Source: Fimbriimonadaceae bacterium (GTDB lineage: Bacteria; Armatimonadota; Fimbriimonadia; Fimbriimonadales; Fimbriimonadaceae). Taken from it: a stretch of DNA of 32,749 nucleotides. The translations under genes and the position numbers were made by a program. The DNA is taken from assembly GCA_019638775.1 (NCBI GenBank), contig JAHBTD010000008.1, forward strand, positions 1 through 32,749. Direction: 5' to 3'. Below, piece after piece: positions 2,986-26,068 of this stretch; position 1 is the stretch's first letter, and the number at the start of each line of letters is the position of its first letter. The notes below the pieces were generated by a model, which was not told where the DNA came from, made no database searches, and saw only the letters and a program-made list of their open reading frames with translations.

Positions 2986-3353
2986 ATGGCACGGTGCAGA
3001 GGCTGGTGGGTGTGGATGGTGGTCGCCCTGTGTTTCGATGCCGGGTCTGTGACCGCGCAGGAGGTCCTGCATGTATACGGTCCCGGGGGCCGGCTCCGGC
3101 CCTGCGAGAGGCGGCGGCGGAGTTCAGTCGAACCACCGGCATTCAGGTTGAGGTGACGGCTGGTCCGACCGCCAAGTGGCTGGCGAAGGCCAAGTCCGAG
3201 GCCGATCTCATCTATTCGGGTTCAGAGTTCATGATGACGGACCTGATTGCCGCGATGGAGGGAGCGGTCGATGAGGCGGCGGCTGCGCCCCGTTATCCTG
3301 ATGCCGAACCGACAGGAGGCAACCATGAAAGATCTTGTCCGGTATCCCGGTGA
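2986..3353 (+). pseudogene. Decayed AcfC-like periplasmic binding-protein gene
   Basis: Reading from ATG 2986 gives a signal peptide (hydrophobic, ending VTAQ) and the mature start EVLHVYGPGG. The frame then breaks: the next residues only make sense one frame over, where PAPALREAAAEF, GIQVEVTAGPTAKW and ADLIYSGSEFMMTDL follow. This order matches the N-terminal half of AcfC-type (ModA-like) solute-binding proteins. The break lies in the G-run at about 3085-3091 and looks like a one-base deletion. Similarity ends near 3290 and the C-terminal half of the roughly 250-residue family is absent. The shifted frame runs into the cupin gene and stops at 3353. A sequencing error could explain the frameshift but not the truncation. 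Confidence 0.72.
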
Positions 3354-5496: not shown

Positions 5497-5631
5497 CGCA
5501 AGCTCTCCTGGAAGGTTTCCTCGGTACGAAGCATACGGATGGTCCTGTCGGCTCGACGTGTCCGGCCATGTGTTAGCATGAATCGTATTCCCGGTTCACC
5601 ATGGAGACATCAGCCAAAAGGAGTAGGACGT

Positions 5632-6576
5632 ATGTTCGAACACATTGGTGCGACGCGTTATGCGCTCTGGGTGTTGCTGCTGGCCATGTCGGCGAGCGGA
5701 GGTCCGGCCGCTGCATACGAAGAAATCACCGTCGCCGACGGAGGAACCGTCAGCGGAAGAGTCACCATGGTCGGCAAGGTTCCTCACCCCAAGGGGTACA
5801 ACCTCACGACGCTTCCCGATGCGGTGTACTGCGGCCGGATTTCGGACGGGCAGGGCTGGCGCTTGATGCAACCGTTTCGAATCGGTCTTTCCGGAGAGTT
5901 TCAGGAAGTGGTCGTCTATATCGAATCCATCGAACGCGGAAAACCGTTCCCTGCATTTACGGCCCCGCGCATCGAGGCGATCGATTGCCGGTTCCTTCCG
6001 TTCCTCAGTCTCGTCCGTGATCGGCATGATGTGTCGGTGGTGAACATGGACCCCGCCATGCACGACATCCAGGCCTATGAGACGTCGCATCTAGGACCGC
6101 GCGTCCTGTTCAATTTGCCCTTGCCGATCAGTTCCAGATATCCGGCCCAAGCCCAGCTGAGCGCGCAGGTTTCGAAGCATTACGAGGGCACTCCGGTGAC
6201 GGGAACCGTTCATATGACGAAGGGGCGTAACATGTTCGTGATGCAGTGCGGCTTCCATGCGTACATGGAGAGTTGGGGATTGGTGATGGATCATCCCTAC
6301 TATGCGTTGACCGATAGTGACGGGCGGTTCCAACTCTCAGACATCCCGCCCGGCACCTATGTAGTCAAAATCTGGCATCCCTACGTCCGGGAAGAGATTG
6401 TGCAGACGGTCACGGTCGAACCGAAAGGCCGGGCAACACTGAATGTGAATGTGCCCGCTCCCGCGGGCCGACTGTATGCCAATCAAATGGTGGAGAACCC
6501 GTATGTTCGTTACCAGATCACGGGTGCCGAGCAGACGGCAATCGTGCCGACGTTGGAAAAGCAGACGTACCGGTGA
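5632..6576 (+). CDS. Secreted cupredoxin-like protein with carboxypeptidase-regulatory domain
   Basis: A 314-residue exported protein (signal peptide to about residue 28). It has a type-1 copper ligand set with amicyanin-like spacing: H144 in NMDPAMHD, then C206-x2-H209-x2-M212 in MQCGFHAYMESWG. The segment that follows, ALTDSDGRFQLSDIPPGTY with KIWHPY, is a carboxypeptidase-regulatory-like beta-sandwich. Similar proteins are often annotated as methylamine-utilisation or plastocyanin-like. The start is ATG 5632 because AAAAGGAG lies upstream and the signal peptide begins there. A role as a periplasmic electron carrier or copper-binding protein is inferred; a monohaem cytochrome gene lies downstream. 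Confidence 0.82.
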   Translation: MFEHIGATRYALWVLLLAMSASGGPAAAYEEITVADGGTVSGRVTMVGKVPHPKGYNLTTLPDAVYCGRISDGQGWRLMQPFRIGLSGEFQEVVVYIESIERGKPFPAFTAPRIEAIDCRFLPFLSLVRDRHDVSVVNMDPAMHDIQAYETSHLGPRVLFNLPLPISSRYPAQAQLSAQVSKHYEGTPVTGTVHMTKGRNMFVMQCGFHAYMESWGLVMDHPYYALTDSDGRFQLSDIPPGTYVVKIWHPYVREEIVQTVTVEPKGRATLNVNVPAPAGRLYANQMVENPYVRYQITGAEQTAIVPTLEKQTYR

Positions 6577-6621
6577 GAGTGGTGAAAGGCGTTCAGGATC
6601 GATCGTCAGCGCTGAAATGTG

Positions 6622-6650
6622 CCGGACGGGGTTCTAGCCGATTCGTCCGG
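6622..6650 (+). terminator. Possible hairpin after the cupredoxin-like gene
   Basis: CCGGACG (6622-6628) pairs perfectly with CGTCCGG (6644-6650) around a 15-base loop, 45 bases after the stop of the cupredoxin-like gene. There is no T-run, so it is at best a weak terminator or a chance dyad. Confidence 0.3.
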
Positions 6651-6692
6651 TCATGAGTTCAAGGGAGTTCCGATAGCCTCGCGACGATCATG

Positions 6693-6709
6693 GGTGTTCA
6701 CTGAACACC
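6693..6709. promoter_or_regulatory. 17-base palindrome, likely operator
   Basis: GGTGTTCA-C-TGAACACC is a perfect 8+1+8 palindrome 68 bases before the cytochrome start at 6778. A one-base loop cannot form a hairpin, so a dimeric DNA-binding protein is the natural reading. The regulator is unknown. Confidence 0.5.
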
Positions 6710-6718
6710 GCGTGAAAT

Positions 6719-6747
6719 CGGGGCGACATATCATCCGGGGCGACATA
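6719..6747 (+). promoter_or_regulatory. Tandem 12-base direct repeat upstream of cytochrome gene
   Basis: CGGGGCGACATA occurs twice without mismatch, at 6719-6730 and 6736-6747, with a 17-base period, ending 30 bases before the ATG at 6778. It may be a pair of binding sites for a response regulator or similar protein. It lies just downstream of the 6693-6709 palindrome, so this promoter region looks controlled by more than one factor. Confidence 0.45.
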
Positions 6748-6777
6748 CCAAATGGTTCGGTGTATGGGGAGGCTGCG

Positions 6778-7143
6778 ATGCGTCGATATCTCATTCCAGC
6801 AGGGGCGGTCCTGTGCGTAGTGGTGATGAGCGGCTGGATCGGAGCCCAGGAGTTTCGCGGGAATCCCGACAAAGGCGAGGCGGTCTACAAGGCACAGTGC
6901 CTCAGGTGTCACGGCAGGCTCGGAGACGGGAACGGACCGGATGCCCAGGGCTTGATCGTGCAGCCCAAGGACTTTCACACGTTGCCGTCCCGCGGCCGAA
7001 CCGATTTCGAGTTGCTGATCGCGATTTCGAACGGGGTCCTGTTCAGCCCGATGCATTCCTGGAGGGGGCGACTGAAGGATCAGGAGATGTTGGATGTCAT
7101 TCAGTACATTCGTGCCTTGGCCCCCGAGCGGGGGACGTCGTGA
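6778..7143 (+). CDS. Monohaem cytochrome c, periplasmic
   Basis: A 121-residue class I cytochrome c with a signal peptide (about residues 1-24), haem site C41-L-R-C44-H45 and probable axial M92 in LFSPMHSW. The start is ATG 6778, five bases after GGGGAGG and at the head of the signal peptide. It is a close paralogue of the cytochrome at 25706-26068, with the same length, the same haem-to-methionine spacing and shared blocks such as CLRCHG, DGNGPD and MLDV. It probably shuttles electrons among periplasmic partners. The upstream palindrome and direct repeats point to dedicated regulation. Confidence 0.9.
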   Translation: MRRYLIPAGAVLCVVVMSGWIGAQEFRGNPDKGEAVYKAQCLRCHGRLGDGNGPDAQGLIVQPKDFHTLPSRGRTDFELLIAISNGVLFSPMHSWRGRLKDQEMLDVIQYIRALAPERGTS

Positions 7144-7453: not shown

Positions 7454-8299
7454 ATGAGACCAATACTATCGATCGCCGTCGCGATGGTCCTGTTCCTCGC
7501 AGGCTGTGTCGACTCGAAGGAGACACGAAGCGGTGCGCCCTCTGCCCTGAACCAATTCGAGCCTGAGAGGCTCGATGCGCTGTTCAGTCACCCTTCCCCC
7601 GATTCCATCCCCGGCGGACAACGCGGAGAGCAGATCCGGTTAGGCTATCAGCTGGTCGTCCATACTCAGGAATTTGCCGCGCCCTACGTAGGCAACCGAC
7701 TCACCTGTGCGAATTGCCATTTAGACGCAGGGCTCGATCCCAATTCAGCGTCCTACGTCGGCCTCTCGCGGGCCTATCCCGAATATCGTGCGCGGACCGG
7801 GCGCGTCGTGACGCTGGCCGACCGCATCAATGACTGTTTCGAACGCAACTTGAACGGCAAGCCGATTCCGCAAGACAGTCACAAACTGCAAGCGATCGTC
7901 GCCTATATCGAATGGTTGTCGAAGGATGTGCCGGCCGGCAGCCGGATGGCCTGGCGGGGGATTCCCACCATTCAATCGCCCAAGCCGCCGGACGCGGTGA
8001 ATGGAGTCAAGGTGTTCACCGCCCGTTGTGCCTTTTGTCACGGAGCCGACGGACAGGGCACGATGGCGGGGCCACCCCTGTGGGGACCTCAGTCCTACAC
8101 GCTGGGCGCGGAGCTGGTCCGTGTTCCGGTAGCGGCTGCGTTCATCAAGTCGAACATGCCGAGAACCAGGGGATGGGCTCTCTCGGATCAGGATGCATAT
8201 GACGTCGCGGCCTACATCAACGCGCAACCACGCCCGGACTTTCCCGATAAAGGCCAGGATTGGCCGAAGGGAGGAAAGCCGGCGGATGTGCCCTACTAA
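7454..8299 (+). CDS. Di-haem cytochrome c lipoprotein, TsdA (thiosulfate dehydrogenase)-like
   Basis: A 281-residue lipoprotein (lipobox LAGC, C18). It has two cytochrome domains with haem sites C85-A-N-C88-H89 and C192-A-F-C195-H196. The segment after haem 1 (YPEYRARTGRVVTL, then DRINDCFERNLNGKP) matches the TsdA family, including C128, which sits where TsdA has its unusual cysteine ligand to the active-site haem. M235 in SNMP is placed as the ligand of haem 2. TsdA oxidises thiosulfate to tetrathionate or runs the reverse reaction. The neighbouring sulfite-oxidase-like gene supports sulfur chemistry, but relatives of this family may act on other substrates. Confidence 0.8.
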   Translation: MRPILSIAVAMVLFLAGCVDSKETRSGAPSALNQFEPERLDALFSHPSPDSIPGGQRGEQIRLGYQLVVHTQEFAAPYVGNRLTCANCHLDAGLDPNSASYVGLSRAYPEYRARTGRVVTLADRINDCFERNLNGKPIPQDSHKLQAIVAYIEWLSKDVPAGSRMAWRGIPTIQSPKPPDAVNGVKVFTARCAFCHGADGQGTMAGPPLWGPQSYTLGAELVRVPVAAAFIKSNMPRTRGWALSDQDAYDVAAYINAQPRPDFPDKGQDWPKGGKPADVPY

Positions 8300-8403
8300 G
8301 TACATGCCCTGTGGCTCGTGAAACAGATCCCGGCCCGACGTCGGAGATAGTGAACCATCGGAAGCCACGCACGAGCGGCCGCAGACCGGAAGAGGAGAGG
8401 GAG

Positions 8404-8802
8404 ATGAAGCTGAGTGTGGCCTATCAGGGAGGCGCCCGCTACGACATTCTCAGCGACCGGCATCGCGTCGTCACGGACCAACCGGTCGACGATGGCGGCG
8501 CCGACGCGGGCATGAGTCCTGTGGAGTTGTTTGTGGGATCTGTGGCCGGCTGTGTGGGCTATTTCGTGGGTAACTTTTGCGCGCGACACGACATTTCCCG
8601 TGACGGCCTGAAAGTGGAGGCGGAGTGGACGATGGCGGAACAGCCTCACCGTGTCGGGCAGATTCATCTGTCGATCAGGCTGCCCCACCGGATCACGCCG
8701 GAATTGAAAGAACGATTGTTGAAAGTCGCTCACGGATGTACGGTGCATCAATCGGTCGTGGTGCCGACGGGCATTGCGATTGAGTTGAATCCTCATACGT
8801 AG
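8404..8802 (+). CDS. OsmC/Ohr-family protein
   Basis: A 132-residue protein with the OsmC fold. The two redox cysteines are C50 in GSVAGCVGYF and C112 in HGCTVHQS, the pair that reduces organic hydroperoxides in OsmC and Ohr. The start is ATG 8404 after GGAAGAGGAGAGGGAG; the frame upstream of it has no family similarity. It lies between the TsdA-like cytochrome and the sulfite-oxidase-like gene, so a role with sulfane-sulfur or persulfide species is also conceivable. Cytoplasmic, no signal peptide. Confidence 0.87.
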   Translation: MKLSVAYQGGARYDILSDRHRVVTDQPVDDGGADAGMSPVELFVGSVAGCVGYFVGNFCARHDISRDGLKVEAEWTMAEQPHRVGQIHLSIRLPHRITPELKERLLKVAHGCTVHQSVVVPTGIAIELNPHT

Positions 8803-8833
8803 CTGGCGATGGAGGCAGGATGAAAGGACGATC

Positions 8834-10015
8834 ATGGCGGTGACGCGGCGGGCGTTGTTCGAACGGGTACTGCAAGGCATCGGAGCGGGTGTGGTGGCGG
8901 GCGCCGTCGACCGAGCGCTCGCCGATAGCCCGGTTGAGACGACCGGACAGGCGAGCGGCCCGCTCACCGTTCGTGTTTCCCGGCCGTTCGACGCGGAAAC
9001 GCCGGTGCGGGAATTTACCTCCTGGTTGACCGCCAATGAACGGTTTTTTGTGCGCAGTCACTTCGGGCCACCCAGTGCGGAGGCCATTGAGCCGGAGTCG
9101 TGGCGTCTGACGGTGAAGGGACTCGTGAAAGATGAGTTGACGCTGAGTCTGTCCGAGCTGAAGAAGTTCGAGTCGGTGACCGTCGCCGCTGTGTTGCAAT
9201 GCAGTGGCAACGGTCGCGCGCACCATCGCCCTAAGGTTCCCGGTGTCCAATGGGAACGGGGCGCGGCTGGAAATGCGCAATGGACCGGGGTGCGTTTGCG
9301 CGACGTCTTGCAACGTGCCGGCGTGAAGCCGCAAGGACTGCATGTGCAACTGCAAGGCGCGGATCGCCCGGCTCTGCCCAGCGTGCCCCTGTTCACGCGA
9401 AGTATTCCCATCGCCAAAGCGCTCCATCCGGATACGCTTCTTGCCTATGAAATGAATGGTCGCCCTTTACCGCTCCTGCATGGCGCACCGTTGCGGGTGA
9501 TTACGCCGGGCTGGATGGCGGAATCCTGCATGAAATGGTTAACGGAGATCACCCTGCGTGCAGACGAAACGCCCGGATATTACATGCAGCAGGCCTATCG
9601 GATACCGGAGACGTCGATCCAGCCTGGGTCGGGGTTGCCGGGGAGCGTGATGGTGCCGGTCGAGCAGATGCCGGTGAAATCGCTCATCGCCGCGCCCGCC
9701 GAAGGGGACACGCTGAAAACCGGTCCGGTGACCATTCAAGGGGTGGCCTGGGCGGGTGAATCGCCGATCACCAAGGTGGAAGTCTCGTGCGACGATGGGA
9801 AGACCTGGGCGCCCGCTCGGTTGGTGGGTGAAGAACAGCCCTACGCCTGGCGGCAATGGCAATATTTGTGGAATGCGCGTCAGGTGGGTCCGACGGCGAT
9901 TCTCTGTCGGGCGACGGATGCGCAGGGGACTCAGCAACCGGAGAAGAGTCCGTGGAATCCCGGGGGGTTTTTGTGGAACGGGTGGGATCGCCTGTCTGTG
10001 ACGGTGGCCGCATGA
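8834..10015 (+). CDS. Sulfite-oxidase-family molybdopterin enzyme, Tat-exported
   Basis: A 393-residue protein. The N terminus carries a twin-arginine signal (VTRRALFERVL followed by a hydrophobic stretch). The Mo-pterin domain follows: ANERFFVRSHFG near residue 70, the molybdenum-ligand cysteine C123 in LQCSGNGR, and RVITPGWM further on. The last 120 residues form the dimerisation beta-sandwich (GVAWAGESPITKVEVS). The family oxidises sulfite to sulfate and passes electrons to cytochrome c. The stop overlaps the start of a di-haem cytochrome gene by four bases, the SorAB or SoxCD arrangement. The sequence looks closer to SorA than SoxC. Sulfite as substrate is inferred from family and partner. 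Confidence 0.88.
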   Translation: MAVTRRALFERVLQGIGAGVVAGAVDRALADSPVETTGQASGPLTVRVSRPFDAETPVREFTSWLTANERFFVRSHFGPPSAEAIEPESWRLTVKGLVKDELTLSLSELKKFESVTVAAVLQCSGNGRAHHRPKVPGVQWERGAAGNAQWTGVRLRDVLQRAGVKPQGLHVQLQGADRPALPSVPLFTRSIPIAKALHPDTLLAYEMNGRPLPLLHGAPLRVITPGWMAESCMKWLTEITLRADETPGYYMQQAYRIPETSIQPGSGLPGSVMVPVEQMPVKSLIAAPAEGDTLKTGPVTIQGVAWAGESPITKVEVSCDDGKTWAPARLVGEEQPYAWRQWQYLWNARQVGPTAILCRATDAQGTQQPEKSPWNPGGFLWNGWDRLSVTVAA

Positions 10016-10659
10016 GGGGCCTGATGGGGGAGGCGAGAAGAGCGCGAGGACGATGGTCTCCGTTGGTGGCGGGGCTGGTACTGCTCCTCGGCATCGCGGC
10101 CGGGACGGCGGCTCAAGAAGATGACAAGCATACGATCGAACCGGCGCAGGCTCGACGGGCGGTGACGTTGATTCATGCTCGTTGCGCCGTGTGCCACACG
10201 ACCGATCTCATCGTGCAACAGCGGTTGCCGCCGGATCGATGGCAGGTCACGGTCGAGAAAATGATGCATTGGGGCGCGGACCTGTCCAAGGACGAGGCCG
10301 CCGCCCTGCTTCAGTTCGTGACGGCTCGCTACCATCCGGGTGCGCCGGACCAGTTGCCGTCCATTGAAGAAGAGTTGGCGATGACGGCTCCGGCGGGAGG
10401 GCCCAGCACTGCGAGCGACGGCCCGCTAGTCGGGGTGTCGGCACGAGGCGCTGAAATGTTTGCACGGAACTGTCAAGCGTGCCATGGCGAGGGCGGGATG
10501 GGAGGCGCGGGGCCCAAATTGGCCCGCAATAAAATCTTGAAGAACGAGGGAGCGTTTTGGGAGACGGTACTCCATGGCCGAGGCCCGATGCCGGCGTGGG
10601 GCTCTGTCTTGAGTCATCAGGACATTGCAGATATCCATGCCTGGTTGGCATCACGCTGA
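10012..10659 (+). CDS. Di-haem cytochrome c, partner of the sulfite-oxidase-like enzyme
   Basis: A 215-residue exported protein (hydrophobic segment at about residues 18-33) with two haem sites: C58-A-V-C61-H62 and C154-Q-A-C157-H158. The N-terminal domain has the short form with RWQVTVEKMMHWG; the C-terminal one is a class I domain with PMPAWG as probable axial methionine. It starts in the stop codon of the molybdoenzyme gene (ATGA), so it is the likely electron acceptor. SorB of known sulfite dehydrogenases has one haem and SoxD has two; this protein resembles SoxD in haem number but is much shorter. Confidence 0.87.
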   Translation: MRGLMGEARRARGRWSPLVAGLVLLLGIAAGTAAQEDDKHTIEPAQARRAVTLIHARCAVCHTTDLIVQQRLPPDRWQVTVEKMMHWGADLSKDEAAALLQFVTARYHPGAPDQLPSIEEELAMTAPAGGPSTASDGPLVGVSARGAEMFARNCQACHGEGGMGGAGPKLARNKILKNEGAFWETVLHGRGPMPAWGSVLSHQDIADIHAWLASR

Positions 10660-10695
10660 CCGGTCGCGCAGTGGGGTGAACGAAAGGGGTGGTTC

Positions 10696-12111
10696 ATGGG
10701 TGGAAGACGGACGGTGATGATCGGGTGTGCGTTGGTCATGCTGCTGGGGCTCTTTTCATTCCCCCGCTTGCTCTTGGGCAGTGATCAGACTCGCGTCAAG
10801 GAGATGATCCAGAACAACTGTGCCGGATGTCACCGCCTGGAAGGGAAAGCGGAGTCGCGGTTCAACTTGAAGGCACCCGATCTGATTTGGGCCGGGAGTA
10901 AATATCAGCGCGCGTGGTTGCTTCGCTACCTGACCGGGAAAGAGGCGCCGCTGTATCCCAAAGGGTACCGGTGGGATTTGTCGGAGGGGCCGACGCGGCA
11001 CCCGGTCGTCACGGAGGATGAAGCCCAGGGAATTGCCGAGTATTTCGAGCAGCACAACAAGGATTCGCGGGTGACGGTGGGCGCCTTCGATGTCTCGAAA
11101 ATCAGTAAGTTCGATGCCACGTTCGGCGGGATGGCCTATAAGGCCCACGCCTGTCTCGGATGCCACCTGATCGAAGAGAACGGCAAACTGATCGGCGGAC
11201 CGCAAAGCATCTCGTTGGCCGATTCCGGGCAACGGTACAACATGGATTGGCTCTTCCGCTTCGGACAAAACCCCCAGGATTTTATCACCCACACCGGGGA
11301 GTTCCTGGCCGATGCCACGGAGCCGCAATTGCGAGCGGTCATCGGGTTTCTGGCGGTGCAAGGGGTCAAGGACTTCAAGTATTACGAACCGTGGAAGGCG
11401 CCGGAGTTCGGCATGGCAAGCGTCGATCGAGGAAAGGTGCTGTACAAAGAATATTGCGCCCAGTGCCATGGGTTCACCGGAAAGGGCGATGGTCCGGCCG
11501 CCTCGGGGTTGGACCCGAAGCCGGCCATTCATGCCAACATTCCCTTCGACAAGGTGCCGACCGACTATCTCTACAATGTGATCAATCATGGCGGCGCCGC
11601 GATGGGGAAGTCGCCGAACATGCCCTATTGGGGCTTGACCATCGGCCAGCAGGGTGTGGCCGACGTGATGGCCTATCTGAAGGCCACCTTCAAGGGCGGA
11701 GCGGACGTCGCGCAGGCAGCCGCAGGGTCCGGGGAAGGTCCGAGCGGGGTGTGCCCGCAGCCCAGGAAAACGGCGAAGGCGCCGGCCGATTTCCTGTCCA
11801 AGACCAATCCGCTGCCGCAGTCGGATGCGACCATCAAGGCGGGGAAAACGCTGTTCCTGCAGACCGCTCAGCCGGTGGCTTGTGCGATGTGCCACGGTGA
11901 GAAGGGCAATGGGCAGGGCTTCATGGGGGCGGCATTGATCCCGCCGCCCAGAAACTTCACGTGCGGCTCGATGATGAAGGATCTGCCTGACGGCCAACTG
12001 TTCTGGATCATCAAGAACGGCTCACCGGGCACCGGTATGATGTCGTTCGCCGGGTTGCCGGATGACCAGGTGTGGCAATTGATCGCCTATATCCGAAGTT
12101 TGGCGAAATGA
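10696..12111 (+). CDS. Tetrahaem cytochrome c, multi-domain
   Basis: A 471-residue exported protein built from class I cytochrome domains. Haem sites are C42-A-G-C45-H46, C153-L-G-C156-H157, C254-A-Q-C257-H258 and C396-A-M-C399-H400. A hydrophobic N-terminal segment at about residues 6-28 acts as signal or anchor. A linker rich in A, G and P (about residues 335-370) separates the third and fourth domains. The fourth domain has GSPGTGMMSF as probable axial-methionine loop and resembles the cytochrome at 13760-14335. It lies 36 bases after the sulfite-oxidase partner and may be the next electron carrier in that chain. I do not recognise a named family. Confidence 0.87.
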   Translation: MGGRRTVMIGCALVMLLGLFSFPRLLLGSDQTRVKEMIQNNCAGCHRLEGKAESRFNLKAPDLIWAGSKYQRAWLLRYLTGKEAPLYPKGYRWDLSEGPTRHPVVTEDEAQGIAEYFEQHNKDSRVTVGAFDVSKISKFDATFGGMAYKAHACLGCHLIEENGKLIGGPQSISLADSGQRYNMDWLFRFGQNPQDFITHTGEFLADATEPQLRAVIGFLAVQGVKDFKYYEPWKAPEFGMASVDRGKVLYKEYCAQCHGFTGKGDGPAASGLDPKPAIHANIPFDKVPTDYLYNVINHGGAAMGKSPNMPYWGLTIGQQGVADVMAYLKATFKGGADVAQAAAGSGEGPSGVCPQPRKTAKAPADFLSKTNPLPQSDATIKAGKTLFLQTAQPVACAMCHGEKGNGQGFMGAALIPPPRNFTCGSMMKDLPDGQLFWIIKNGSPGTGMMSFAGLPDDQVWQLIAYIRSLAK

Positions 12112-12126
12112 GTTGACTGAAGAGGT

Positions 12127-12200
12127 GCAGATGGCCGACGCGTATGGCACGAGCAAGAGATCTCCCACGGGGTCATTGCCATCGGCCATACGCGATCTGC
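12127..12200 (+). repeat. Long inverted repeat between tetrahaem cytochrome and DsrE genes
   Basis: GCAGAT (12127-12132) plus CGCGTATGGC (12139-12148) pair with GCCATACGCG (12185-12194) plus ATCTGC (12195-12200): 16 perfect pairs with a six-base bulge on the left. The bulge is part of ATGGCCGA (12131-12138), which can instead pair with TCGGCCAT (12182-12189), so two exclusive folds exist. It may be a dispersed intergenic palindrome, a terminator for the cytochrome run or a switching leader for the DsrE gene at 12265. Confidence 0.5.
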
Positions 12201-12264
12201 CGTCAGCTCCGATTGTGACGGACGAGAGATGCTTCACGAACGACGATTCACAGGAGACTGAGCA

Positions 12265-12624
12265 ATGGCGACGTTTATCATTTCCGGCAGTCGTGGTACC
12301 GACGATCCCACAATGGCGACGTTACCGTTTATGGCGGCCAAGACGGCCAAAGAGCAGGGGCATGATGTGGTGCTCTGGTTGTGGAACGAGGCCGTCACGC
12401 TGGGGCGCAAGGGCACGGCTGATCATGTGACCGGTGTGAACCTGACCCCGTTGAAGGATCTGCTGACTGCCGTGCAAGCGGCGCAGATTCCCATCTGGGT
12501 CTGCGGGGCTTGTGCCGTCGCCCGTCAAATCAGTGCTGCTGATCTCGTCGCAGGCGCCACGATCAAGGGTATGGCTGATTACATCAAGGCCGTGGCTGAG
12601 CGTGACCGGAACGTGGCATTCTGA
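12265..12624 (+). CDS. DsrE-family protein
   Basis: A 119-residue cytoplasmic protein of the DsrE/DsrF-like superfamily. It starts with MATFIISGSRGTDDP, has a hydrophobic core strand DVVLWLWNEAV, and carries two cysteines at C80 and C83 in WVCGACAVAR, where sulfur-carrying DsrE and TusD proteins have their active cysteine. DsrE-like proteins move sulfane sulfur in sulfur oxidation and tRNA thiolation; many paralogues have no known role. Its position after a sulfite-oxidase and TsdA-like block fits sulfur handling. The ATG follows a CAGGAGACTGAGCA ribosome site. Confidence 0.85.
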   Translation: MATFIISGSRGTDDPTMATLPFMAAKTAKEQGHDVVLWLWNEAVTLGRKGTADHVTGVNLTPLKDLLTAVQAAQIPIWVCGACAVARQISAADLVAGATIKGMADYIKAVAERDRNVAF

Positions 12625-12651
12625 TCCGGCATGAAAGGACAGGGGGCGCGC

Positions 12652-13707
12652 ATGGCAGGAAACGGACAAGGAAACGGCAAAGCCAAGGGGCGAAAGGACC
12701 GCGAGCCGATGGAGCCGGATACGGTGCTCGGGCCAGAGGATTTGGAGAATGACGACCTGGAGGTGATCCCCACTGCCGTGCCCCGGGTGGGCGACGGATA
12801 CGAGGCGGCGCGTGACCCCGGCGGCGCCATGGCGGCGGGATTCATCGGTGAAGCGGGCCGGATCTTGAGCGAAGAGGATCTGCGTCGTATCAATACGCCG
12901 AGGGGCCTCATCCAACTGATTAAGAGCAAGAACATCAATCTGGAAGAGGTGCGCAAGACGCTCTTATACGAACAGGAATTGCGGCAGTTACAGGTGGAGC
13001 TGGTCCGCCTGCAGCGCTGGGTGCAGTCGGATGGTCAGCGCATTGCGATTCTTGTCGAGGGGCGTGATGCGGCCGGCAAAGGCGGGACCATCCGCCGGTT
13101 CACCGAACATCTCAACCCGCGTGCGATGCGGGTCGTGGCCCTCCCGAAGCCGACGGACGACGAACGGGGGCAATGGTATTTTCAGCGGTACATCCGGCAA
13201 CTGCCCAACAAGGGCGAAATCGTCTTCTTCGATCGGAGTTGGTACAACCGGGCCGTGGTGGAGCCGGTCATGGGATTCTGCAGCAAAAAGGAGCACCAGC
13301 GGTTCCTGCAGCAGGTGACGGAATTCGAGCACATGCTGTACGAAGACGGCGTCACGATCATCAAGTTCTGGTTCTCGATTTCCAAGGAGGAGCAGGCAAA
13401 ACGGTTTGAGGCCCGCCGGCAGAATCCGCTCAAACAGTGGAAGCTGAGCCCGGTCGACGAAAAGGCGCAGGAGATGTGGGATTCCTATACGCGCTTCAAG
13501 GAAGAGATGTTCAGCAAAACCCATACGACGTTCAGCCCATGGATCATCGTGAAGGCGAACGATAAGCAGGCGGCTCGCCTGGAAGGTCTGCGGTATGTCT
13601 TGAATCTCCTCCCGTACAGGGGGAAGGATGAAGCGCAGATTCGCCTCACGCCGGATCCCAACGTGATCACCCGTTTTCATCGGAAGATGGCGGAACTGGA
13701 TTTCTGA
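12652..13707 (+). CDS. ppk2: Polyphosphate kinase 2
   Basis: A 351-residue PPK2 of the one-domain, NDP-specific type. The Walker A region is E136-GRDAAGKGG with K143, the lid and Walker B segments include FFDRSWYNRAVVEPVMG, and RRQNPLKQWKLSP follows as in the family. These enzymes use polyphosphate to phosphorylate GDP or ADP, or run in reverse. The first 60 residues are charged and glycine-rich and look disordered. The start at 12652 is preferred over 12631 because an AGGGGG element precedes it, while nothing precedes 12631. An energy-storage role would suit the stress-related genes further right. Confidence 0.9.
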   Translation: MAGNGQGNGKAKGRKDREPMEPDTVLGPEDLENDDLEVIPTAVPRVGDGYEAARDPGGAMAAGFIGEAGRILSEEDLRRINTPRGLIQLIKSKNINLEEVRKTLLYEQELRQLQVELVRLQRWVQSDGQRIAILVEGRDAAGKGGTIRRFTEHLNPRAMRVVALPKPTDDERGQWYFQRYIRQLPNKGEIVFFDRSWYNRAVVEPVMGFCSKKEHQRFLQQVTEFEHMLYEDGVTIIKFWFSISKEEQAKRFEARRQNPLKQWKLSPVDEKAQEMWDSYTRFKEEMFSKTHTTFSPWIIVKANDKQAARLEGLRYVLNLLPYRGKDEAQIRLTPDPNVITRFHRKMAELDF

Positions 13708-13759
13708 CTCCGATCAGGTACGCGGCCGATCAGAGGTGTGTCCCCGGAGGGGGCGAGGT

Positions 13760-14335
13760 ATGGTGGAGCGAAGAGGAAGTCTGGCGGTGTCGGCGATGCC
13801 GCTTGTCGCGCTGCTCTGTGGTTCGTCCCTGGCGTGGGCGGCCGGGCATGATCTCATGCGGCCTCGCGTCCCGGCGGACAAGATGGCGGAAGCTCGGGCT
13901 CTGAGAAGCCCAGTGCCGGACTCACCTCAGACCATTGAACAGGGCAAAGCGCTCTATGCGGGGAAAGGCACCTGTATCAATTGTCATGGAGCGGAAGGGG
14001 ACGGCAATGGCCCGCTCGCGGCTCAGCTCAATCCTGCGCCTCGCAACTTCCAGCATCATGGATTCTGGCGCCATCGGACGGAAGGCGAAATCTTCTGGGT
14101 GATCAAACATGGGTCCCCGGGGACCAGTATGGTCGGTTTCGGCGAGCAACTCACCGACGAGGAGATCTGGGCCTTGATTCACTACGAGCGGACCTTCCGA
14201 CGTCATCATGGCATGCGCGGACGCGGCCCAATGGGGCACGGGGGCATGCGCGACTCCCGCAAGAGCGATCGTGGGAATGGAGCTGAGGAGGACTCCGTGG
14301 CGACAGAGACGCCGTCGTCGCCGGAAAAAGAGTGA
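13760..14335 (+). CDS. Monohaem cytochrome c with His/Met-rich tail
   Basis: A 191-residue exported cytochrome c. The signal peptide ends at about residue 28 (AWA). The haem site is C72-I-N-C75-H76, with the axial-methionine loop HGSPGTSMVGF. After the fold ends at about residue 150 there is a tail RRHHGMRGRGPMGHGGM rich in His, Met and Gly, which could bind copper or another metal, and a charged low-complexity end. The domain is most like the fourth domain of the tetrahaem cytochrome. GGAGGGGGCGAGG precedes the ATG. Confidence 0.87.
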   Translation: MVERRGSLAVSAMPLVALLCGSSLAWAAGHDLMRPRVPADKMAEARALRSPVPDSPQTIEQGKALYAGKGTCINCHGAEGDGNGPLAAQLNPAPRNFQHHGFWRHRTEGEIFWVIKHGSPGTSMVGFGEQLTDEEIWALIHYERTFRRHHGMRGRGPMGHGGMRDSRKSDRGNGAEEDSVATETPSSPEKE

Positions 14336-14693: not shown

Positions 14694-15002
14694 ATGGCCG
14701 ATCAGAGTCACAATTGTTCAGGTGCCGGGATGTCGATCGCGTTTCTCAGCGGTGCCGTGCTGGGGGCGATAGCCGCCGTTCTGTATGCGCCCAAGTCCGG
14801 CGTCGAAACGCGTGCGGCATTACGTGGGTATGCGCGCCGCACGGAGGAAGAGATGTTGGAGAAAGCTCGGGAGGTTCGACAAGACATCTCTCACAGCGTC
14901 GATGAAGCGAAACGGTACTTGAAGGAAACCGAGGCGACGATTGCCGCGGCAGTGGCGGCCGGCAAAGAAGCTTTCAAGAAGGAGCGGGCGGATCGAGCCT
15001 GA
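14694..15002 (+). CDS. YtxH-domain small membrane-associated protein
   Basis: A 102-residue protein. Residues 10-32 form one hydrophobic, glycine/alanine-rich helix (FLSGAVLGAIAAVLYAPKSG), the hallmark of YtxH-type proteins; the rest is a long charged amphipathic helix that could form a coiled coil. Family members in other bacteria are linked to general stress responses, with unknown mechanism. It is the first gene after the -24/-12 promoter, and its stop is one base from the oxidoreductase gene, so it should be co-expressed with that enzyme. GAAGGAG lies upstream of the ATG. Confidence 0.83.
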   Translation: MADQSHNCSGAGMSIAFLSGAVLGAIAAVLYAPKSGVETRAALRGYARRTEEEMLEKAREVRQDISHSVDEAKRYLKETEATIAAAVAAGKEAFKKERADRA

Positions 15003-15003
15003 G

Positions 15004-15921
15004 ATGGTGGCTGTACGATTTCACGGGCGCGGCGGACAGGGGGCGAAGACGGCCAGCCGGATTCTCGGCACCGCGGCGTTTATCAGCGGGTATGTGGCCC
15101 AAGATGCCCCGATCTATGGCGCGGAGCGAAGGGGAGCGCCGGTCGCGGCATTCACGCGCTTCGGTCGTGAGCCGATTCGGGAACGGGGGGCGATCGCGCA
15201 TCCTGACGTCATCGTGGTGGCCGATGCCTCGTTGCTGGACGATGCGGTGGCGCATGTGTTGGACGGAGTGACCGGGCAGACGGTCCTGTTCGTGAACTCG
15301 TCGCTGAGCGCGGACCTGTTGCGCACCCACCTGTCCTTGCCTGAGCAGGTGACGGTGAGAGATGTGACGGGGATTGCGCTGCAACAGCTGGGAGCGCGTG
15401 AGGCCATCAGTGCGCTGCTCGGCGCAGTTGCCGCGCGGTTGGTAGGGTTGGCGTGGGAGCCTGTGCGCTCGGCGATCGATGGTGAGCTTCGCGACCTCGG
15501 CCTGGCCGAGCCGGTGATCGAGCGGAATCTGACGGTGGCGCGGCAGTGTTACGACTCGGTTGAGCCGGCCACATTGCCTCAAGGCACCGCCCAAGCCGTC
15601 GGCGCGGCGTCCTTGCACCACCCGACCTATGAACCGCCCACGAAGGGCACAGCCAGGATCGCCGCGGCCGGAAATTCGGTGTTACGTGAAACCGGTGGAT
15701 GGCGAACCTTTCGCCCGGTGTTGGTGGCAGACAAGTGCAACGGATGCTGGCTCTGTTTCGTCTATTGTCCGGACGGCGTGATTACCATGAATCAGGAAGA
15801 TCGCCCCGTCGTCGACTATGACCATTGCAAAGGCTGTCAGATTTGTGTGCACGAATGTCCGACTCACGCATTGATTGCGGAGCGGGAGCAGGAAGGCGGG
15901 GTCGCATGGACAGCCAAATGA
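15004..15921 (+). CDS. 2-oxoacid:ferredoxin oxidoreductase, fused gamma and delta subunits
   Basis: A 305-residue fusion. Residues 1-190 are the gamma subunit, starting with FHGRGGQGAKTAS and containing GAERRGAPVAAF. After a linker, residues 240-295 form a 2[4Fe-4S] ferredoxin (delta subunit): C245-x2-C248-x2-C251-x3-C255 and C275-x2-C278-x2-C281-x3-C285. The complex oxidises pyruvate or another 2-oxoacid to acyl-CoA and CO2, passing electrons to ferredoxin, and can run as a CO2-fixing synthase. In many four-subunit enzymes gamma and delta are separate. The alpha gene begins 16 bases inside this gene. Confidence 0.92.
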   Translation: MVAVRFHGRGGQGAKTASRILGTAAFISGYVAQDAPIYGAERRGAPVAAFTRFGREPIRERGAIAHPDVIVVADASLLDDAVAHVLDGVTGQTVLFVNSSLSADLLRTHLSLPEQVTVRDVTGIALQQLGAREAISALLGAVAARLVGLAWEPVRSAIDGELRDLGLAEPVIERNLTVARQCYDSVEPATLPQGTAQAVGAASLHHPTYEPPTKGTARIAAAGNSVLRETGGWRTFRPVLVADKCNGCWLCFVYCPDGVITMNQEDRPVVDYDHCKGCQICVHECPTHALIAEREQEGGVAWTAK

Positions 15922-17144
15922 TGACGGGGAATCTGGCGGCTGCCTGGGGCGCCCGGCTGGCCGACGTTGACTACATCCCGGCGTTTCCCATTACGCCGCA
16001 GACGGAAATCGTGGAGGCCTTGGCCAAGTGGTGTGAGCGGGGGGAGTTGGCCGCGCGATTCGTGAGCATGGACTCCGAACATTCCATGATGACGGCGGCC
16101 GGTGCGGCGGAAGTGACCGGCGCGCGAGTCTTTACGGCCACCTCCAGTCAAGGGTTGCTGCATGCGTTCGAGGTGCTCTATTCCATTTCGGGGTGGCGTG
16201 CGCCGCTCGTGCTCGTCAATGTCTCGCGAGCCCTGGCCGCACCGATTACGTTGGAGTCCGATCACAACGACGTGTTGGCCGCGCGCGATGCCGGGTTTCT
16301 GCAGATCCATGCCGAGACCTGCCAGGAGGTGTTGGATTCGATTCTGATGGCCTATCGGATTGCGGAAGATGAGCGTGTGATGTTGCCGGTGATCGTGAAT
16401 CTGGACGGGTTTACCCTGTCGTTCACCCGTGAGCCGGTCACGGTGCCCGATCCGGACACCGTACGACGGTTTTTGCCGCCCTTCCGTCCGTCTCATCTCG
16501 GGTTCACGGCCTCGTCGCCGCATGCGTTGGGTGTGGCCGTGATCGGCGGCACCACGTATGCGTACTTCCGTCATCAGGTGCACCTGGCTGCCCAGAATGC
16601 GCTCGACGTACATCGAGAGGCAGCGGAATCGTTCCACGCCTTGTTCGGCCGCCGGTATGACCTGGTCGAAGGGTACCGGTTGGATGATGCGGAAGATGTG
16701 CTCGTGATGACCAATGCGGGGGCAAGCACAGGGAAGGCGGCGGTCGATGTTGCCAGAGCGCAGGGGAAGCGGGTAGGGCTGCTTCGGTTGCGCATGATCC
16801 GCCCCTGGCCGGCTGATGCCATTCGAGAGGCCCTACGTGGGCGACGGGCCGTGGCCGTGCTGGATCAGAACCTGGCGCCGGGGCAGGGCGGGATTCTCTA
16901 TCAAGAAATCGCCGCCTGTGTGTACCACGAGACCGCCAGGCCGCGGGCCCTGTGCTCGTTCATCGGCGGGTTGGGAGGCCAGAATCTTTCGGCCGGCGCG
17001 TTTCAGGCCCTGTTTGAGCAGACGGCGCAGGCAGGACTCACGGGAAAAGGCTGCGGACCGGTGTTACTCTACAGTGCTGAGGAACATCGGGAGATGACGC
17101 AATTGCAGATGGTCGCGGCGGGAAGCGTGGAGCGTACAAACTGA
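15906..17144 (+). CDS. porA: 2-oxoacid:ferredoxin oxidoreductase alpha subunit
   Basis: A 412-residue alpha subunit. The N-terminal domain has the signature FPITPQTEIVEALAKW, then the SMDSEHSMMTAAGAA and TATSSQGLL blocks of the pyrimidine-binding region. The transketolase-C-like domain lies beyond residue 270 (EDVLVMTNAGAS, LRMIRPWP). It forms the active site with the beta subunit. The start at 15906 overlaps the gamma-delta gene by 16 bases. I cannot tell pyruvate from branched-chain or other 2-oxoacids from the sequence, so the por symbol follows the common label. Confidence 0.92.
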   Translation: MDSQMMTGNLAAAWGARLADVDYIPAFPITPQTEIVEALAKWCERGELAARFVSMDSEHSMMTAAGAAEVTGARVFTATSSQGLLHAFEVLYSISGWRAPLVLVNVSRALAAPITLESDHNDVLAARDAGFLQIHAETCQEVLDSILMAYRIAEDERVMLPVIVNLDGFTLSFTREPVTVPDPDTVRRFLPPFRPSHLGFTASSPHALGVAVIGGTTYAYFRHQVHLAAQNALDVHREAAESFHALFGRRYDLVEGYRLDDAEDVLVMTNAGASTGKAAVDVARAQGKRVGLLRLRMIRPWPADAIREALRGRRAVAVLDQNLAPGQGGILYQEIAACVYHETARPRALCSFIGGLGGQNLSAGAFQALFEQTAQAGLTGKGCGPVLLYSAEEHREMTQLQMVAAGSVERTN

Positions 17145-25705: not shown

Positions 25706-26068
25706 CTAACTCACAAATTCGGGTGCCGCGACGGAACGGATATAGGACAACACGTCCAGCATTTGTTGATCCGTCAATTTCCCCCGATAGCCGTGCATGG
25801 GGCTGAACAGGGCCCCGTTCGCAATCGTGATCAGCAATTCCCAATCGGTTTTCACCCGCGAGTTGACCGACTGAAAATTCGCCGGCCGCACGATCAGATA
25901 CTGCCCATCCGGTCCGTTCCCGTCCAGTTTGTCGCCATGGCACCGGAGGCAGTTTTTTTCATAGATGGCCTGGCCGTCGCGAGGATTGCCGCGATTGGTC
26001 TGGCCGGCGGCCCAGGTGCTTCCCAGGATCACGAGGCAAAGAGCGCAGAGAATACTGAAGGTTTTCAT
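25706..26068 (-). CDS. Monohaem cytochrome c, periplasmic
   Basis: A 120-residue cytochrome c with a signal peptide (about residues 1-22), haem site C40-L-R-C43-H44 and axial M91 in LFSPMHGY. It is a paralogue of the cytochrome at 6778-7143: haem and methionine are in register within one residue and most of the fold is conserved. AAGGAG lies before the ATG. It sits between a universal stress protein gene and the thioredoxin/DsbD-like gene, 19 bases from the latter. The two paralogues probably serve the same type of partner under different conditions, since their upstream regions differ. Confidence 0.9.
   Translation of the reverse strand: MKTFSILCALCLVILGSTWAAGQTNRGNPRDGQAIYEKNCLRCHGDKLDGNGPDGQYLIVRPANFQSVNSRVKTDWELLITIANGALFSPMHGYRGKLTDQQMLDVLSYIRSVAAPEFVS

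Follow-up and report, generated by a model that had tools for sequence, protein, structure and literature searches.

A conserved cluster of TsdA-like and SorA-like genes in Nitrospira as a putative thiosulfate/tetrathionate and sulfite redox module

What role might a compact row of haem and thiol protein genes play in a nitrifying bacterium? This question is raised by the window, the whole stretch of DNA analysed here, which is the entire 32,749-base contig JAHBTD010000008.1 (contig C8 of our genome G000) of assembly GCA_019638775.1, filed under Fimbriimonadaceae. Positions 7454 to 12624 encode, on the forward strand, a TsdA-like di-haem cytochrome, an OsmC-family protein, a sulfite-oxidase-family molybdopterin enzyme (SO), its di-haem cytochrome partner, a tetrahaem cytochrome and a DsrE-like protein. 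A first-pass annotation of the letters had named these six genes and read them as a periplasmic sulfur-oxidation block; all six are open frames at their given positions, and Pfam agrees with the names. Judged from sequence, the cluster probably constitutes a thiosulfate/tetrathionate and sulfite redox module of Nitrospira (rough probability 0.6), in which a key nitrifier would combine known enzyme families in an uncommon and conserved way.

The taxonomic label of the assembly does not fit this contig. A search of genome contigs with the SO protein returned 46 loci, of which the 16 highest-ranking show 79-96% identity and almost all bear Nitrospira in their titles; the best, at 96%, belong to 'Nitrospira defluvii isolate NOB1' and N. 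sp. CR1.2, and the former aligns with the window contig at 94% over 5.4 kb. The bin's RpoB shares ~77% identity with two members of the family set of the bin and 53% (longest aligned segment) with that of Candidatus Nitrospira defluvii, and across 291 genomes of the bin's phylum set the tetrahaem gene occurs in the source assembly only. On these grounds, the contig is assigned to Nitrospira, in the lineage of Ca. N. defluvii, and is regarded as assembly contamination of a foreign, non-Nitrospira bin, so that the host is a nitrifier, as the first-pass annotation had surmised. The bin's relatives were dropped as a comparison set, since they lack the SO, TsdA and tetrahaem genes or have counterparts ~40% alike and since the RpoB of the bin shows it not to be Nitrospira; 147 genomes of the Ca. 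N. defluvii family served instead. A first impression of a lineage-specific or horizontally acquired block was ruled out by the SO search, which found the Nitrospira loci. SO is at most 43% identical to loci not titled Nitrospira, save one 64% match (L073) with Nitrospira gene order, and a plasmid collection yielded distant homologues only, all below 60% identity. A further contig of the assembly, C12, repeats window positions 8015-32748 at 98.3-99.2% identity and represents this Nitrospira stretch in a second strain. Because this contig repeats the stretch and the gene order recurs in other Nitrospira, the arrangement is not due to chance.

The first gene (7454-8299; 281 aa) encodes a di-haem c-type cytochrome with Pfam matches to the SoxA-TsdA_cyt-c domain (4.5e-15; PF21342, 55.9 bits) and to a second, class-I haem domain (PF13442, 42.6 bits; cut-off 27 for both), and its alignment to TsdA of A. 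vinosum (4wq7; E 1.8e-54) spans both haem domains. The alignment has 100 rows, one for the window and 99 for other loci. Its haem cysteines and histidines are invariant, with His89 and His196 in every row and Met235 in 99. Cys128, singled out in the first-pass annotation as a retained cysteine ligand, lines up with the active-site Cys in the A. vinosum structure and is present in 100/100 rows, and the predicted lipoprotein nature agrees with a lipobox Cys18 kept in 97/99 aligned rows. The substrate arginines are nearly as constant (Arg114, 99/100; Arg124, 94/100, with Gln in 6; Arg223, 97/100), and the window has both Arg114 and Arg124. The available passages of PMC4423706 map substrate-binding Arg109 and Arg119 (A. 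vinosum precursor numbers) and call Ser127 invariant in TsdA. By the residues given there, the active site of the window protein is of TsdA type, save at the Ser127 position; because Asn132 replaces this serine, the protein is named TsdA-like. With the TsdA proteins of A. vinosum and Campylobacter jejuni it shares the di-haem layout, the Cys/His ligation of haem 1, the substrate Arg residues and the haem-2 Met. It differs from them in its lipobox, in the Asn132 that the window shares with 15 further rows, and in having no TsdB fusion.

The molybdopterin enzyme SO (8834-10015; 393 aa; Pfam Oxidored_molyb 1.5e-58, Mo-co_dimer 2.5e-18) resembles SorA. NCBIfam models rank SorA (321.5 bits) over SorT (254.8) and SoxC (214.8), all below cut-off, and the best match in the PDB is SorA 2blf, at 241 bits versus 122 for 2xts. 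Its proposed export by the Tat pathway accords with a twin arginine, R5-R6, in 53/53 aligned rows. Arg74, His76, Cys123 and Arg128 are invariant in these 53 rows, and Tyr255 in all 52 with a letter. Arg74, His76, Cys123 and Tyr255 correspond to SorA Arg55, His57, Cys104 and Tyr236, with Arg55, His57 and Tyr236 identified from mutant chains in the PDB alignments; Cys104 of SorA is the Mo ligand. The ATG of the partner gene (10012-10659; 215 aa) overlaps the SO stop codon. Its product comprises two cytochrome c domains, a SorB-like one that matches chain 2blf_B in a profile search (E 4.8e-4) followed by an extra cbb3/c6-type haem domain, and carries two CXXCH motifs in 51/52 rows. The pair shares with SorAB (2blf) the Mo-enzyme active site, the dimer domain, the Tat-type twin arginine and a co-encoded cytochrome with a SorB-like domain. 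It differs in the second haem domain of the partner and in that both proteins fall far below the SorA/SorB equivalog cut-offs; SO, lying so far below the SorA cut-off, is therefore a distinct SorA-like protein. AlphaFold predicted the structures of the di-haem and the tetrahaem protein with low confidence (mean pLDDT 68 and 66, respectively). At E <= 0.001, Foldseek found no match for the former and a single one for the latter (6h5l_B), which is uninformative on function.

The tetrahaem c-type cytochrome (10696-12111; 471 aa; Pfam Cytochrom_C 2.5e-32) is a probable electron hub. Four CXXCH motifs are present in 70/98 rows, three in 17/98, and none or one in 11/98, which are short, fragmentary or poor matches. 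Some relatives (at loci such as L137, L138, L140 and L151) have a three-haem short form whose matches end near residue 335. The OsmC-family thiol protein (8404-8802; 132 aa; Pfam OsmC 1.7e-12) keeps Cys50, Cys59 and Cys112 wherever the alignment has a letter (95-96 rows), and the DsrE/YchN-like protein (12265-12624; 119 aa; Pfam DsrE 8.4e-20; YchN 1jx7, E 1.8e-5) keeps Cys80 in 84/84 and Cys83 in 83/84 rows. Because neither has a visible signal peptide (judged by eye), both are probably cytoplasmic, and the description of the whole block as periplasmic is probably wrong for these two proteins.

The cluster is widely conserved in the family. With presence set at E <= 1e-60 for SO and the tetrahaem gene and at E <= 1e-30 for TsdA, TsdA is found in 100 of the 147 genomes, the tetrahaem gene in 108, SO in 72 and AMO in 46. 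One hundred stretches were compared, 99 around TsdA and one around SO, excluding one TsdA genome with a short match (G403). In most of them, the order tsdA, osmC, SO, di-haem cytochrome, tetrahaem cytochrome, dsrE, ppk2 is constant. On the same strand, SO follows TsdA within 3 kb in 49/54 genomes with both, the tetrahaem gene follows SO within 3 kb in 55/64, and it follows TsdA within 5 kb in 86/91. Exceptions include two genomes with SO after the tetrahaem gene (G296 and G313) and three with SO on a separate contig (G301, G385 and G428); 18 SO-positive genomes have no TsdA match. The pairwise identities of SO and TsdA rise together (rho 0.86; 0/500 permutations as high), and dN/dS between the window and four relatives for seven genes is 0.03-0.21, with one pair undefined. 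The cluster genes are under purifying selection.

Among the evidence from gene context, it is the relatives that speak most strongly for a role of the cluster in sulfur chemistry. In 25/100 loci, a two-gene TsuA/YeeE-type Sulf_transp pair, absent from the window, lies between tsdA and osmC. When the pair was scanned with Pfam in two loci, all four proteins proved to be Sulf_transp (77.5 and 61.3 bits; cut-off 27). For one locus, the nearest NCBIfam model is TsuA, at 43.8 and 42.7 bits against a cut-off of 400, the gene being split in two. Sulf_transp exceeds its cut-off in 28/147 genomes, 26 of them at the cluster: the 25 pair loci and G420, where it adjoins the tetrahaem gene; in G340 and G416 it is elsewhere or unplaced.

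Taken with the retained active-site residues, these features suggest how the module may operate. In the periplasm, the lipid-anchored TsdA-like cytochrome would couple two thiosulfates to tetrathionate at its Cys/His haem, while SO and its SorB-like di-haem partner would oxidise sulfite to sulfate. Both would hand their electrons to the tetrahaem cytochrome and to a pool of c-type cytochromes that feeds the terminal oxidase. On the cytoplasmic side, OsmC and DsrE would handle thiol-bound sulfane sulfur, and in some species the TsuA/YeeE-type pair may move thiosulfate across the membrane. The favoured function is that thiosulfate and sulfite are scavenged to supplement the electron supply, in combination with detoxification.

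Other assignments of substrate and direction were weighed against this module. That SO and its partner are SoxCD-like and oxidise carrier-bound sulfane sulfur is the least probable of them. SoxD is likewise di-haem, and the pairing of an SO-family subunit with such a partner is common to SoxCD (2xts) and the Nitrospira proteins. However, SO is closer to SorA than to SoxC by both the profile and the PDB scores, its partner matches SorB, with 2xts not among the best 60 of 184 partner matches, and SoxB exceeds its cut-off in none of the 147 family genomes. 'soxCD' is described as prevalent among Nitrospirales in the available part of PMC11033732, where the orphan 'soxCD' is probably this SO and di-haem pair. 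It is also highly improbable that the proteins have left sulfur chemistry, with the TsdA-like protein a mere electron carrier and SO acting on another substrate. Their high divergence from relatives outside Nitrospira would suit such a change, but the catalytic residues do not vary and the cluster has taken in a pair of sulfur transporter genes. A TsdA running in reverse, reducing tetrathionate and so serving as an electron sink when oxygen is low, is improbable as well. The haem-2 motif is Asn-Met (Asn234 in 98/100 rows, Met235 in 99/100), as in the tetrathionate-reducing TsdA of C. jejuni according to the available passages of PMC5146829, and unlike the Lys-Met of A. vinosum. The same passages nevertheless describe the Lys position as variable and neighbouring residues as shifting the direction, so the motif is not decisive, and SO and the neighbouring cytochromes fit an oxidative role. 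TsdA enzymes can run in both directions.

More weight, although still doubtful, attaches to pure detoxification and sulfur homeostasis, in which SO would remove toxic sulfite and OsmC and DsrE would quench sulfane sulfur with no net energy role. This is one reading put forward in the available part of PMC11033732, and the soluble thiol proteins linked to the cluster are OsmC and DsrE, the latter highly conserved (mostly 87-95% identity, versus 59-70% for SO). Two c-type cytochrome partners and a tetrahaem cytochrome point instead to respiration, and detoxification has no need of a lipoprotein TsdA. The redox-module reading itself faces several contrary observations. The Ser127 position holds Ser in 82, Asn in 16 (window included) and Gly in 2 of 100 rows; SO reaches 321.5 bits against a curated SorA equivalog cut-off of 600; and residues 44-107 of its partner reach 41 bits with the NCBIfam SorB model, below the cut-off of 93. 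SO and tetrahaem identities correlate less closely (rho 0.40). In 46/100 TsdA-positive genomes SO has no match; the thiosulfate and sulfite reactions are therefore not obligately coupled. SoxB, finally, is above cut-off in 0/147 genomes, with 19 below-cut-off matches such as also occur in 10/14 control genomes. The first-pass annotation was right that Sox core genes are missing, as none was found among the window genes scanned and SoxB stays below cut-off throughout the family, no SoxYZ search being made. Its sulfur reading gains from the retained TsdA and SorA residues and from the transporter pair. The words 'oxidation' and 'extra electron donor' reach beyond the sequence, as the direction of TsdA may vary and sulfite oxidation could be detoxification; overall, that interpretation stands in part, and the gene row on which it was built stands in full.

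The distribution of SO differs between comammox and canonical Nitrospira. SO occurs in 1/46 AMO-positive versus 71/101 AMO-negative genomes (Fisher p 1.8e-16), and in 0/34 versus 51/57 of the 91 genomes with both TsdA and the tetrahaem gene. A looser count that accepts any tblastn match gives 1/36 versus 50/60. At many AMO-positive loci, what lies between TsdA and the tetrahaem gene is osmC, alone or with the transporter pair; the missing SO is thus no assembly gap there. One AMO-positive genome, G379, keeps the SO pair. As a statistic of independent events, the Fisher contrast is overstated: a FastTree tree with 96 rows requires 5 changes of SO, and the median p over independent pairs is 0.25. 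Because the events are few, an association with comammox is not shown once relatedness counts, and the scarcity of SO is a pattern rather than a proven association. A literature statement, available in part, also counts against a general absence of the sulfite-oxidising pair from comammox. We put forward only tentatively that this is a Nitrospira-wide thiosulfate/sulfite locus overlooked or filed as orphan 'soxCD'; that canonical nitrite oxidisers keep the SorAB-like pair; and that comammox lost it while retaining TsdA, OsmC, the tetrahaem cytochrome and DsrE, a change in sulfur metabolism perhaps accompanying the gain of ammonia oxidation.

Parts of the cluster have probably been seen before. 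A sulfite dehydrogenase is reported in Nitrospira in the available passages of PMC7078480, and 'SOR' appears in a figure legend of PMC5767232; this is probably in part the same enzyme as SO. Those passages make no mention of TsdA, the YeeE pair, the OsmC/DsrE linkage or loss in comammox. In the part of a 2025 survey available (PMC12342949), SorAB is described as mostly confined, two exceptions apart, to lineage IV, in contrast to the SorAB-like pair found here in 72/147 family genomes, which calls that view into question. tsdA is assigned to Ca. Nitrotoga in PMC9239080, and no statement assigning TsdA to Nitrospira was found in the available passages of that paper, PMC8115675, PMC10367259 or PMC6311188. 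Relative to this partly available literature, the cluster itself, tsdA in Nitrospira, the SorAB-like pair in 72/147 genomes and its near absence (1/46) from AMO-positive ones appear to be new. Much of the nitrite oxidation in soil, water and treatment plants falls to Nitrospira, in which a conserved thiosulfate/sulfite module would tie the metabolism of nitrogen to that of sulfur. It would also offer a reason for the 'orphan soxCD' calls and give a testable genetic contrast between canonical and comammox Nitrospira in existing cultures.

The block extends beyond DsrE into a polyphosphate kinase 2 gene, ppk2 (12631-13707, forward strand; NCBIfam TIGR03707 358.4 bits, above the cut-off of 301.8), which adjoins dsrE in many loci, and a mono-haem c-type cytochrome (13736-14335, forward strand; Pfam Cytochrome_CBB3), often last in the cluster and kept in position in many loci. 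PPK2 as a TsdA regulator, as in Erythrobacter, was retained as no more than a lead; the available part of PMC12172448 leaves the gene neighbourhood unmentioned.

Scans of the window for tRNA and Rfam families found none. Upstream, it holds a CCP/MauG di-haem peroxidase gene (1842-2960) and an SBP_bac_11 substrate-binding gene (2994-3353) that spans profile positions 7-72 of 227 and appears broken. A CarboxypepD_reg-type protein and a c-type cytochrome (5539-7143) precede the block; both adjoin it in one other locus (G291), and the cytochrome without the CarboxypepD_reg-type protein does so in G340 and G372. An inverted repeat of 133 bases (76.7%) joins positions 6925-7055, inside a c-type cytochrome gene, with 25794-25924. 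Downstream of the block, positions 14941-17144 encode subunits of a pyruvate/2-oxoacid:ferredoxin oxidoreductase.

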